This document shows, in pieces, positions 57,318-60,992 of a stretch of 64,000 nt of DNA (positions are counted from its first letter, which is position 1; each line of letters starts with the position of its first letter). The DNA comes from Georgenia muralis (GTDB taxonomy: Bacteria > Actinomycetota > Actinomycetes > Actinomycetales > Actinomycetaceae), in contig NZ_RKRA01000001.1 in the NCBI RefSeq assembly GCF_003814705.1, positions 2,728,001 to 2,792,000 of the forward strand. The letters run 5' to 3'. Under the pieces are notes generated by a model, which searched no databases, was not told the origin of the DNA, and saw only the letters and a list, made by a program, of their open reading frames with translations. Both the position numbers and the translations under genes were made by a program.

Positions 57318-57920
57318 TCAGACCTCCTCTGTCAGGGCGTCGTCGATGAGTCCTCGCAGGATGGTCGGGTCGATCTGGCCCAGGATGCGGGCGGCGACCC
57401 GCCCCTGCCGGTCCAGGACGACGGTGGTGGGCATGGCCTGCAGGGGCACGAGCCCCTCGAAGGCGGCGACCCCGCGGGCGTCCTGGTCGTGCAGGGAGGG
57501 GTAGGGCACCTCGAAGGTGCGCTCGAAGGCCTGAGCGGTGCCGACGTCGTCGCGGGGGTTGATCCCGAGCATCTTCACCCCCTGCGGGGTGTAGTCGGTG
57601 TGGATGGCCTTCAGGTCCGGTGCCTCGGCGCGGCATGGCGGGCAGGCCGCGTACCAGAAGTTGACCACCACGACGTCACCGCGCCAGTCCGCCAGGTCGA
57701 GCCTCTCCCCGGAGTAGGTGGTGCCGACCAGGGAGATGGGGTCGGCGCGCTGGTCCGGGGCCCAGGTGGCGAAGGTGCCGTCCCCGGCCACGTACCCGGC
57801 GTCCGAGGCGGCGGCCGCGGCCGCGGCGGGGGACTGTGTGCCGCTGCCCGGGGCGCAGGATGCGAGCACGAACGCGGCGGCTGCCCCGAGGCCGGCGCTG
57901 ATCACGGCACGGCGACTGAG
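57318..57920 (-). pseudogene. resA: ResA thiol-disulfide lipoprotein, main part (5' end cut off by nested IS elements)
   Basis: Thioredoxin-like protein that reduces apocytochrome c. The redox motif is WYAACPPCRAE (CXXC), followed by GINPRDDVGTAQAF and the cis-Pro region LQAMPTTVVLD. The lipobox LASC follows SRRAVISAGLGAAAAFV, which looks like a twin-arginine-type lipoprotein signal. The natural start lies 3 kb away at 61090, beyond the IS1380 and IS110 elements. A GTG at 57905 could still start a shortened product with part of the signal, so some activity is possible. Confidence 0.85.
57916..57920. repeat. Left target duplication of the IS1380 element
   Basis: CTGAG, repeated at 60993-60997. 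Five bases is within the usual range for the IS1380 family. Confidence 0.85.
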
Positions 57921-57939
57921 CCCTGATCCGTAAGTTCTT

Positions 57940-58090
57940 GGGTGGCCCGGGAGGGCTGGGTGTGGCTGAGCCTTGATCGCCCGTTGATGGCTCCGATGGA
58001 TTGGCCGCCCGGTTCCTCCTGGGGCGCCTTGACTGCTGATTGAGATGCGCGTCCTGGTCGCTGTTTACGGATCTGTCGGCGGGGTGTTCC
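57940..58090 (+). ncRNA. Predicted IS110 bridge RNA
   Basis: In IS110-family elements such as IS621 a bridge RNA from the left end pairs with both target and donor DNA. Here four segments occur in the expected order. 57967-57979 matches the left target side (57917-57929) at 11 of 13 bases. 57994-58002 is complementary to the right target side (59361-59369) at 8 of 9. 58039-58045 equals the right end of the element (59355-59361, ATTGAGA). 58065-58073 is complementary to the left junction (57925-57933) at 9 of 9. The first pair lies inside a stem of 57946-57954 with 58015-58023 (nine pairs, one G-U), and the second inside a stem of 58025-58033 with 58075-58081 (TT bulge). Transcript ends are estimates. 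Confidence 0.75.
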
Positions 58091-58132
58091 TTCGGGCCAT
58101 GGCAATCGCTCGTGTGCTCGAAGGAGGAGTTG

Positions 58133-59347
58133 ATGAAGCAACGGATCGCGCCCGGGTGGGCTGGTGTCGACGTCGGTAAGGGTCATCACTGGATCTGCCT
58201 GATCGACGAGGCCGGCACCACAGTCTGGTCGACGAAGGTGGTCAACGACGAGGCCGCCATCCTCGACGCGATCGCCGGCGTCCTTGGCCACGCCGACGAG
58301 GTCGTCTGGGGAGTAGACGTCACCGGGACCATGTCGGGACTGCTGCTGGCACTGCTGGCAGCCCACGGTCAGCGGGTGAGATACGTCCCCGGCCGCACGG
58401 TGAACCAGATGGCCAGCGCCTACCGCGGTGAGGCCAAGACCGACGCCCGCGATGCCTACGTCATCGCCGAGACCCTGCGACACCGCGGCGATCTACAGGA
58501 CGTCGAGGTCGCCACCGCGCTGGTGACCGAGCTGCGGCTACTGGTGACCCACCGCACCGACCTGGTCGGTGACCGGGTCCGCGTGGTCAACCGGCTCCGC
58601 GACGTGCTCAGCGGCTACTTCCCTGCGCTGGAGCGGTCCTTCGACTACGCCCATAGCCGGGGTGCGTTGGTCCTGCTGACGGGCTACCAGACGCCGCAGG
58701 CGATCCGCCGGACGGGTGAGTCGCGGTTGCGGGCATGGCTGGTCAAGCGGAAGGTGCGCAGCGCCGACCAGATCGCTGCAGCTGCGCTCGGTGCGGCCAA
58801 GGCCCAGCAGACCGTCGTGCCCGGGCAGGATGTGGCGGCCAGCATCGTGGCCGACCTCGCCGCTCAGCTCCTGGCGCTCGGCGCGCGGATCTCCGACCTC
58901 GACGCCCGGATCACCACCACCTTCCGCGCGCACCCCCAGGCCGAGATCATCGAGTCCCTGCCCGGCATGGGACCGATCCTCGGTGCCGAGCTGGTAGCCG
59001 CCGCAGGGGACCTTGCCGCCTATGCGAACGCCGGACGGCTCGCCTCGGCCGCCGGGCTTGTCCCGGTCCCGCGGGACTCTGGCCGGCGCACCGGGAACCT
59101 GCACCGGCCGATGCGCTACTCGCGCAAGCTGCGCAGAGTGTTCTACCTCTCCGCCTCAGCCGCCATGATGCGCGAGGGCCCCAACCGCGACTACTACCTC
59201 AAGAAGCGCGGACAAGGCCACGGGCACGTCCAAGCGCTCATCGCCTTGGCGCGCCGACGCGTCGACGTCCTATGGGCCCTGCTCCGCGACAACCGACCCT
59301 TCGAACTCGCCCCACCCTCGCGAGAACCGATGGCCCAAACGGCTTGA
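58133..59347 (+). CDS. IS110-family recombinase (DEDD transposase)
   Basis: 404 residues from ATG 58133 after AAGGAGGAG. The N-terminal RuvC-like domain has GVDVGKGHHWIC (first Asp), GVDVTGTMSG and EAKTDARDAYVIAE. The C-terminal Transposase_20 domain has IIESLPGMGPILGAEL and LASAAGLVPVPRDSGRR with the catalytic Ser region. The frame is intact, so the element may be active. In IS110 elements this protein is guided by a bridge RNA, a candidate for which lies directly upstream. Confidence 0.95.
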   Translation: MKQRIAPGWAGVDVGKGHHWICLIDEAGTTVWSTKVVNDEAAILDAIAGVLGHADEVVWGVDVTGTMSGLLLALLAAHGQRVRYVPGRTVNQMASAYRGEAKTDARDAYVIAETLRHRGDLQDVEVATALVTELRLLVTHRTDLVGDRVRVVNRLRDVLSGYFPALERSFDYAHSRGALVLLTGYQTPQAIRRTGESRLRAWLVKRKVRSADQIAAAALGAAKAQQTVVPGQDVAASIVADLAAQLLALGARISDLDARITTTFRAHPQAEIIESLPGMGPILGAELVAAAGDLAAYANAGRLASAAGLVPVPRDSGRRTGNLHRPMRYSRKLRRVFYLSASAAMMREGPNRDYYLKKRGQGHGHVQALIALARRRVDVLWALLRDNRPFELAPPSREPMAQTA

Positions 59348-59498
59348 CAAAGTCATTGAGAATCCACCGACGTGGTGGGGTGGTCGCTGATCTGGTGGCG
59401 TGCTCGGGATCGCGGGTCTTTGGGCGTGGTGGGGCTGCCGGTTTGTGCCGGCTCTTCCACGTCGGGTTCCTCGGTTCGTGCCCGTGGGGGCTGGGTGG

Positions 59499-60872
59499 TC
59501 AGGTCGCGGTGGCCGGTGGTGGTCCGGTGGCGGCGGTGTGGAGCGCGGTCCAGGCCTGTGCCCAGGCCCAGTGGGCGGGCAGGTGCAGGATGAGCCGGCG
59601 GCCGGTGGAGGCGATCCGGGCGGGGACGTTGACGATCCGGCGGCGCAGGGTGGCCCACCGGGCCGTGGCCATGTTCGCGGCGACGGCGGCGGCTCGGGCG
59701 ATGTTGAACGCGATCGTCGCCATCGCCACCCACGCCGCGTTCGCCGCGTACTTCCCCGACGGCAGGTGCGCCAGGGGCCCGTCCTTGAGCTCGGCGATGA
59801 CCTGCTCGATGACCGCGTGCCCGCGGTGGCGCTGGTCGGCCTGAATGGTGTCCAGGTCGGAGTTGGTGATGAACGCGTGGTGGCGGTAGGTCGCGAACAG
59901 CTCGCCCTGCTCGCTGCCGTCACTGGCCAGGGGCTGGAGCCGTCGGACGCGGCGCACGATCAGCCGGCAGGTCACGCGCTCGGCCTTGCGGCGACGGGTG
60001 AACGCGACGAAGGGGACCTCGGCGACCTCGGCGTCGGAGACCCACCGCTGCTCGGCCTCATCCCAGACCGCATGGGGGTACTTGATCGGGGTCCAGGCGT
60101 CCTCGCCGATGCCCGCGATGGCCGCCTTGGCCTGGGGGTTCATCCGCACCGTCACCGAGAACCACGCCCCGTGGCGCAGGGCGGTGGCGACGAAGGCGTG
60201 GCCGTAGTACGCCGAGTCCGCCCGGCACAGCACCGGTCCGGCCACGCCCGCGGTCCGGGCGGTCCCCAGGGCCTGGGCGAGGAGCTGGCCGGCCCCGGTG
60301 TGCGAGGCGACGTTCCCGCGCCGTAGCCGGGCCCGCACGATCACCGGCGCCGCCACCTCCGTGGAGACGGTGGCGAGCTGGACGTTCAGGCCACGCACCC
60401 CGGAGTAGCCGTACGCCGCGGCCTGCTTGGCGTACCCGTGAACCTCCCGGATCGTGTCATCGACATCGACGAACGCGATGTCCTCCGTGCCAGCGCCGCT
60501 CACCAGGGCGGGAACCTTCCGAGCGAGCCCTGCCAGCAGCGCGCCGCTGATCTTGTCGAGCTGCTGGACGTGACCGTGGGTGAACGAGCGCAGGAACGTG
60601 CCCAGCGTCGAGGGCGCCCGGACCCCGGCGAAGACTCGGCCCATCCCGCCATGACGCAGCAGGTCCAGGTCATCGATGCAGTCCGCACCGGCGAGCATCC
60701 CACCGACCACGCCCGCCGTCTTGACCCCCGCGTTGGGCGAGGGCACCGTCAACCCCTCGAGCAGGCCGTACAAACCCGCGGACTCCGCCAGCCGCAACGC
60801 CGGGACCAGACCCGCCGCCGACACCAGATTGGACTCATCGAAGACCGGTCGAATCGTGTGAGAAGGTTTCAC
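59499..60872 (-). CDS. IS1380-family transposase
   Basis: 457 residues from GTG, full length. DDE-type catalytic residues can be placed in VDVDDTIREVHGY, LCRADSAYYGH and VIEQVIAELKDGPLAHLPSG. The C-terminal NAAWVAMATIAFNIARAAAV helix is typical. The protein is intact, but the element's left repeat is broken by the IS110, so it probably cannot move itself any longer, though it could act on other copies. Confidence 0.95.
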   Translation of the reverse strand: MKPSHTIRPVFDESNLVSAAGLVPALRLAESAGLYGLLEGLTVPSPNAGVKTAGVVGGMLAGADCIDDLDLLRHGGMGRVFAGVRAPSTLGTFLRSFTHGHVQQLDKISGALLAGLARKVPALVSGAGTEDIAFVDVDDTIREVHGYAKQAAAYGYSGVRGLNVQLATVSTEVAAPVIVRARLRRGNVASHTGAGQLLAQALGTARTAGVAGPVLCRADSAYYGHAFVATALRHGAWFSVTVRMNPQAKAAIAGIGEDAWTPIKYPHAVWDEAEQRWVSDAEVAEVPFVAFTRRRKAERVTCRLIVRRVRRLQPLASDGSEQGELFATYRHHAFITNSDLDTIQADQRHRGHAVIEQVIAELKDGPLAHLPSGKYAANAAWVAMATIAFNIARAAAVAANMATARWATLRRRIVNVPARIASTGRRLILHLPAHWAWAQAWTALHTAATGPPPATAT

Positions 60873-60992
60873 TTACGAGGTGTCCCTCCTGGACAGGCTG
60901 ATCGAGACGTCGCAATCCCGATCCTCCCTGCTCAGGAGGGCATTCTCGTTCTACGCCACGCTCACCCACCGACCCACACCGGTGGATCAGGG

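Follow-up and report, generated by a model that had tools for sequence, protein, structure and literature searches.

The stretch analysed here (the window) comprises bases 2728001-2792000, 64,000 nucleotides in all, of the single-contig 4.14-Mb genome of Georgenia muralis. It contains an element which we consider, with a probability of roughly nine in ten, to be an RNA-guided insertion sequence of the IS110 group with a bridge RNA programmed for the outer ends of IS1380-family members. The occupied sites, the agreement of guides with sites across the relatives of the element, and the order of events can be read directly from the DNA. An earlier sequence-only reading of the window had proposed that the element seeks IS1380 terminal repeats; the junctions of the same genome (eight left, seven right) bear this out, as do relatives in other genera. 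The target rule also includes two bases of the target-site duplication of IS1380.

A search of the genome with the transposase protein gave 12 matches: six intact and identical, three pieces, and three weak ones at 28-31% identity. The pieces come from one copy into which an IS1380 has inserted and from a second that is truncated, which brings the total to eight copies, the six full ones (the window copy included) being identical over 1436 bp. All eight left junctions read CTNAGCCYYGAT followed by CCGTAAG, with flanks that differ beyond the target, and all seven right junctions read ATTGAGAAT followed by CCACCG, the truncated copy (L052) being without a right junction. Every one of these junctions fits CTNAG-CCYYGAT followed by CCACCG, that is, the 5-bp duplication of IS1380 plus its terminal repeat. 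By identity to the IS1380 protein of the window, the IS1380 copies of the genome can be sorted into three types (93-100%, 60% and 56%), besides which one fragment and three remote matches at 31-33% were found; one protein per type was checked, and all of them were IS1380 according to NCBIfam NF033539. These copies have the 13-bp repeat CCYYGATCCACCG in common at their ends and are flanked by 5-bp duplications, in most cases CTNAG and in L056 ATGAG (partly read by eye). The 15-base motif AGCCYYGATCCACCG had 19 exact unoccupied matches in the genome, every one of them at an IS1380 end by coordinates, and its reversed control had none. The pattern AGCCYYGAATCCACCG, derived from the junctions as initially stated, had no exact match in the genome; it wrongly took a base of the element as target, and the 19 matches were obtained with the corrected pattern.

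In all six intact cases the same 5-mer was found outside the IS110 element and outside the far end of the IS1380. The duplication brackets the compound of the two elements, therefore IS110 entered an IS1380 copy that was already resident. When the flanks of L046 and L048 were rejoined, they equalled the unoccupied ends of the same IS1380 types over 127 bp with no mismatch, and the rejoined flanks of L049 equalled the 3' end of the IS1380 in L051; compared with this same end, L047 and L050 have one base missing (43 mismatches if compared ungapped). The 3' end of IS1380 is occupied in L045, L047, L049, L050 and L051 (in L051 by eye from the flanking sequence), the 5' end in L046 and L048, and the right side of IS110 points into IS1380 every time, a constant orientation as directional guides require. 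Counted by IS1380 lineage and end, the number of independent insertions is put at at least five.

One rival explanation is that copies have spread together with IS1380: one or a few guided insertions would have taken place, after which IS1380 moved the compound, and the rebuilt left junction, CCYYGATCC followed by G, does keep the first nine bases of the repeat. The IS1380 bodies of L047, L049 and L050 speak for such hitch-hiking, being 99.8-99.9% alike, all struck at the 3' end and each bracketed by CTCAG. Nevertheless at least five distinct targets are occupied (the 3' end in two type-a lineages, the 5' end in type b, and both the 5' and the 3' end in type c), thus repeated insertion is needed; furthermore, in L051 neither end of the near-identical IS1380 carries an IS110, and the repeat has 13 bases of which only nine are rebuilt. 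We regard this explanation as unlikely.

The sequence-only reading had placed four guides in the left end, and on re-reading all four matches were present where it had put them. Their order and strand pattern (left guides same-sense, right guides complementary) also agree with the IS621 pattern as described in the parts of PMC11208160 that deal with it. Three of the four registers needed adjustment. The match proposed for the left target guide at 57967-57979 exists, while the relevant stretch is narrower, AGCCTTGAT at 57969-57977; in the RNA (plus strand) this guide, AGCCUUGAU, has the same sense as the left target, carries UU at 57973-57974 and follows the targets across 22 clusters. The N of CTNAG, which precedes the left-guided bases, is G at 4, C at 6, T at 6 and A at 4 of 20 sites, and it looks unguided. 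For the right target guide the match at 57994-58002 likewise stood and its register was corrected to CCGATGGAT, 57993-58001 (plus strand); this guide, CCGAUGGAU, is the complement of the right target and follows the targets in relatives, and it fits the seven right targets of this genome at 7 or 8 of 9 positions. The left donor guide, AUUGAGA (58039-58045, plus strand), equals the right end at 59355-59361, exactly as had been claimed. The pairing of the right donor guide, described as 9 of 9 at 58065-58073, is present, and it was corrected to TTTACGGAT at 58064-58072 against ATCCGTAAG, the ninth base (57925) belonging to the target; in the RNA (plus strand) it reads UUUACGGAU, the complement of 57926-57934 with one G-U pair.

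Eighteen aligned left ends (alignment A1) yielded a consensus fold of two hairpins with the guides in internal loops and with compensatory changes in 11 of its 39 pairs, in accordance with the suggestion that each pair of guides is enclosed by its own stem. The observed covariation score was reached by none of 500 shuffles, and slid controls were far lower. A covariance model was built from ten relatives with other guides, all outside the IS1380-guide clade, and it placed a bridge RNA at 57944-58090 (plus strand; two hairpins with internal loops) with 111.8 bits and E 2.7e-20, a score which is partly due to primary-sequence conservation; the next best match in the window had E 0.61. The bridge RNA proposed earlier for the left end is thereby recovered, and throughout the genome the model had eight matches, exactly the eight copies of the element.

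Twenty sites make up the clade which carries the IS1380 guide: eight of this genome, two of a genome of the same genus, and ten from other actinobacteria, spread over six genomes, with half of the ten (five) in one Actinopolymorpha. The left guide GAGCCTTGATC is present at all 20 without exception, and the left targets are AGCC, two variable bases and GAT at all 20. The right target is CCACCG at 15 of 19 sites; L035 and L041, which belong to one genome, have CCGTGG (ATCCGTGG) and a right guide that is altered in the same place (CCCATGGAT). An IS1380 coding region lies on the target side at 13 of the 20 sites (tblastn; some are fragments), namely at six sites of this genome and at L030, L032, L034, L035, L036, L037 and L041. 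As regards other sites, L051 has an IS1380-type end by eye with no coding region in reach, in L058 and L059 the repeat continues briefly rightwards before other sequence follows (by eye), and in L052 the right side is lost. L039 lies within an element of about 160 bp (from about 4219) which has IS1380-like terminal repeats and CTCAG on both sides; L031, outside the 20, lies within an element of similar length (about 160 bp, from about 1439) with IS1380-like repeats, and this small element is apparently a non-autonomous relative of IS1380. The same guides at unrelated sites, the observation named beforehand as one that would speak against the proposal, were rare: among the 20, only L038 and L033 depart.

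The agreement of guides and sites was examined more widely in 51 rows with readable left junctions, 50 of them with a right junction, in 22 guide clusters. L030 and L060 look like one locus from two collections; both are among the 51 rows, and of the two only L030 was kept for the 20-site table. The comparison excluded L061 and L062 (left end cut or unrecognised), L093 (identical in sequence to L086), L040 (left end missing), L031 (contig end) and L042, L043 and L044 (right part only), and the right junction of L084 was moved one base by hand in the best-match test. The best match of the 10-nt left target in the left-end RNA averaged 8.11 for the own element versus 6.63 for the others, that of the 9-nt right target 7.13 versus 5.91, and for either target guide this was reached in 0 of 100,000 permutations; the co-variation of guides with insertion sites, proposed earlier as a check, is thereby borne out. 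When the right guide was fixed by position, the values were 6.29 and 4.01 (again 0 of 100,000 permutations), with a fit uneven along the guide, the sixth of nine positions being exact in 25 of 49. In this test the anchor missed L059 and L064, the right guide of L084 was one base out of register (1 of 9), and the left-guide column, mis-anchored for most of the IS1380 clade, was not used. Individual relatives illustrate the same point: in L089 the guide-coded sequence is CTCGTTTCG and the site is CTCGTTTCG, and in L075 ATCGTCCCA stands in both guide and site. On the donor side, the reverse complement of the first six element bases was found in the donor region of the own RNA in 21 of 24 representatives, against 1 of 442 pairs with a different end; the own left donor 7-mer was also present in 21 of 24, a figure with little test power since this 7-mer hardly varies.

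These relatives also bear on the idea that the recombinase protein, or the DNA shape of the IS1380 repeat, reads the target and that the guide-like segments are incidental. In the IS1380-targeting clade both guide and target are near-constant, so the clade alone hardly discriminates between the two explanations. Relatives with other guides, however, occupy other sites which match those guides, and in L035 and L041 the right guide CCCATGGAT and the right target ATCCGTGG have changed correspondingly; we consider a protein-read target very improbable. That four short matches were picked by chance from a GC-rich stretch has next to no probability, the ordinary fold energy of the RNA notwithstanding, given the consistency of the junctions, the 19 motif matches at IS1380 ends, the permutations, the covariance model, the donor-guide agreement and a guide-site agreement in relatives that exceeds permutation, the comparison on which this explanation had been staked.

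Several observations weigh against the guided-insertion model and should be set beside it. The compounds of L047, L049 and L050 carry near-identical IS1380, and three independent insertions are not required for them. The right target guide is mismatched to its target in this genome, the match of the left donor guide stops at the core, the right target of L033 has diverged and L038 is off target. As regards the RNA, 50 of 500 shuffles attained the number of further pair types, one of five covariation measures, and the structure used in the shuffle test was derived from the same alignment; in single-sequence folding the energy of the window RNA was no better than that of shuffled sequence (z -0.41), and no Rfam family reached the gathering threshold at the bridge RNA, there being only three rRNA matches overall. 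In the wider comparison the permutation tests make no correction for relatedness among the elements; another cluster's guide outscored the own left guide at 5 of 22 sites (L064, L068, L081, L084, L086) and the own right guide at 6 of 22 (L063, L072, L073, L085, L087, L088), and the position-fixed own right guide was best or tied at 15 of 22.

The stated limits of the element had to be moved slightly. The sequence-only reading had given 57925-59369; the ATCC shared by the junctions and the single A in the empty sites correct this to 57928-59363 (plus strand), a complete IS110-group element of 1436 bp with one core copy counted, as supported by the six identical copies and by setting the junctions against unoccupied IS1380 ends. 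ATCC is common to both junctions (57926-57929 and 59362-59365) and the unoccupied IS1380 ends, CCYYGATCCACCG, have one A only, hence the crossover falls within ATCC. The core is probably AT (57926-57927 and 59362-59363) following the IS621 numbering, because the IS621 structure paper gives a near-invariant T as the second core base, and because the base preceding this T differs between left and right junction in several relatives (e.g. L032, L068, L070). GA was ruled out as core, as the empty sites have a single A; TC was considered, since it is found at both readable junctions of the relatives except L071 and L086, and AT was favoured instead.

On the plus strand the left target (57916-57927) consists of CTGAG from the IS1380 duplication and CCCTGAT from the start of the repeat, and it ends in the core AT at 57926-57927. 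The left donor, i.e. the right end of the element (59355-59363, plus strand), ends in the core AT at 59362-59363 and is identical at the seven right junctions. The right target (59364-59370, plus strand) is the rest of the interrupted terminal repeat, CCACCG and then A, continuing as in unoccupied copies. The resident IS1380 (59364-60992, minus strand) was struck at its 3' end; its other repeat is intact at 60980-60992, CTGAG stands on both sides of the compound, and its transposase is encoded at 59499-60872 on the minus strand (NF033539 transpos_IS1380, E 2.8e-86).

The IS110 transposase (58133-59347, plus strand, 404 aa) has both domains of the family over its full length, DEDD_Tnp_IS110 (PF01548, E 6.6e-49) and Transposase_20 (PF02371, E 8.4e-19), and matches the NCBIfam profile NF033542, IS110 family RNA-guided transposase, with E 8.6e-74. 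Candidate motif strings for the DEDD acidic residues and the catalytic serine stand at residues 11, 59, 102 and 314. The left end has 205 non-coding nt up to the start codon and the right end 16 nt past the stop codon; there are no terminal inverted repeats, and insertion is site-specific without a long duplication, as judged from junctions and empty sites. The right end of 16 nt and the RNA in the left end place the element apart from the IS1111 group, a comparison in which subterminal inverted repeats were not searched for.

How the element would move can be outlined as follows. In the excised circle the -35 half TTGACA of the right end (59344-59349, plus strand, overlapping the transposase stop codon) would be joined at 17-nt spacing to the -10-like TAAGTT of the left end (57931-57936, plus strand), and from this predicted promoter across the joined ends the bridge RNA would be transcribed. 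Scanning the integrated form for promoters gave no hit, as would be the case for a promoter assembled only on circularisation. Of the two loops of the RNA, the donor loop would base-pair at the circle junction (ATTGAGA / ATCCGTAAG) and the target loop with AGCCYYGAT and ATCCACCG, a target made up of the 13-base terminal repeat and, before it, the two final bases of the 5-bp duplication of IS1380 (CTNAG). The recombinase would then link the circle to the target at a core that is probably AT. The IS1380 repeat is split by the insertion, and that end is thereby probably disabled. We infer transcription of the RNA, its pairing in the cell, the use of wobble and the loss of IS1380 mobility.

The wobble concerns the two variable positions of the left target, which at the 20 clade sites are CT (8), TC (9), TG (1), CG (1) and CA (1). 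The UU of the guide equals none of these dinucleotides, yet at 17 of 20 sites both positions pair, one of them as Watson-Crick and the other as G-U. It is the only one of the 16 dinucleotides that pairs at 17 sites, the runner-up pairing at 9, where it should be borne in mind that one of 16 is best by chance anyway and that sites within one genome are not independent. This hints that, through G-U wobble at UU, a single RNA could be able to pair with the CCCTGAT as well as the CCTCGAT repeats, the two main types; if so, the wild-type UU guide would serve both CTCAGCCCTGATCCACCG and CTCAGCCTCGATCCACCG targets. The main texts of PMC11208160, PMC11187229 and PMC11208158, figures excluded, gave no match for 'wobble'. 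In a wider form, the guide might be tuned to a whole transposon family, wobble and the reading into the duplication letting it recognise integrated IS1380 and its small non-autonomous relatives, and the element would live as an RNA-guided parasite on a competing IS family, spreading through its copies and probably immobilising them; here we see the balance as even.

The guide order and sense, the NT core with its almost invariant T and the circle-junction promoter are explained by the published IS621 model, as set out in the relevant parts of PMC11208160 and PMC11208158. Like IS621, as those parts describe it, this element has a left-end RNA with two loops, the order left target, right target, left donor and right donor guide, an NT-type core and a promoter rebuilt in the circle. 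Unlike IS621, which targets a REP element and has the core CT, it targets the IS1380 end including part of the duplication, with a core that is probably AT; the IS621 recombinase is only weakly similar to the present one (E 8.5e-7, residues 246-393), and that of ISCro4 gave E 2.1e-8. The recombinases of IS116 and IS2112, actinobacterial IS110 elements named by plasmid annotation, are 62-63% identical to ours, and the left ends of their members L091 (in alignment A1) and L090 (in A2) align with this bridge RNA, whereas their target guides differ, L090 and L091 sitting at CATGGTG sites. IS4321 and IS5075, of the IS1111 group, reportedly insert in the terminal repeats of Tn21-type transposons, and IS1383 is said to insert in the inverted repeats of IS1384, as the titles of the papers on them indicate; these are also IS110-family elements aimed at the terminal repeats of another mobile element, albeit of other target families.

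The mechanism is already known (from IS621 and from relatives hitting transposon repeats), while the IS1380 target and the degenerate, duplication-spanning guide appear to be new: among the matches listed for open-licence articles, judged by abstract openings, no description of an IS110 element aimed at IS1380 ends was found. The case is unusually well documented by its own genome and is a naturally occurring system in which the bridge-RNA model can be tested in actinobacteria: with eight copies in one genome, free targets from three types of IS1380 alongside, and relatives whose guides have changed, the target code, its wobble tolerance and off-targets can be proposed from sequence. It also suggests that one mobile element colonises another by means of a guide RNA across several genera, possibly as a natural brake on the spread of IS1380, and it adds a recombinase that is only remotely similar in sequence to that of IS621 and probably uses AT as core.

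Some single loci deserve mention. In L051 (genome 1974128-1976975) an IS1380 is inserted in the IS110 transposase gene, and that IS110 itself stands in an IS1380-type end; we read this as the two families invading each other. L038, from Actinopolymorpha, is inserted at AGCCTCGAT followed by CCTGCGG, in what reads as a chromosomal gene; it is an apparent off-target insertion, useful to gauge the tolerance of the right guide. In L040 (Janibacter terrae) the transposase and the right end are present, the left end with the RNA was not found and an IS1380 copy lies upstream, so that this locus is probably rearranged. In L078, a 50% relative from another genome, the own left end is duplicated before the element, up to the left target guide, as if a resident copy had been invaded within its guide by another copy, with later loss of the inner part. 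The related IS110 elements L063, L065-L067, L085, L087, L089, L091 and L092 stand at CATGGNG sites, which on the other strand read as a start codon and the bases upstream of it; an annotated gene on the minus strand begins within about 10 bases of the left end in L089, L091 and L092. In the window itself, the compound begins 23 bp away from where a minus-strand TlpA/thioredoxin-like gene (57318-57905) starts, a gene which is adjoined by ResB/CcsA-like reading frames, all of these being named by eye.
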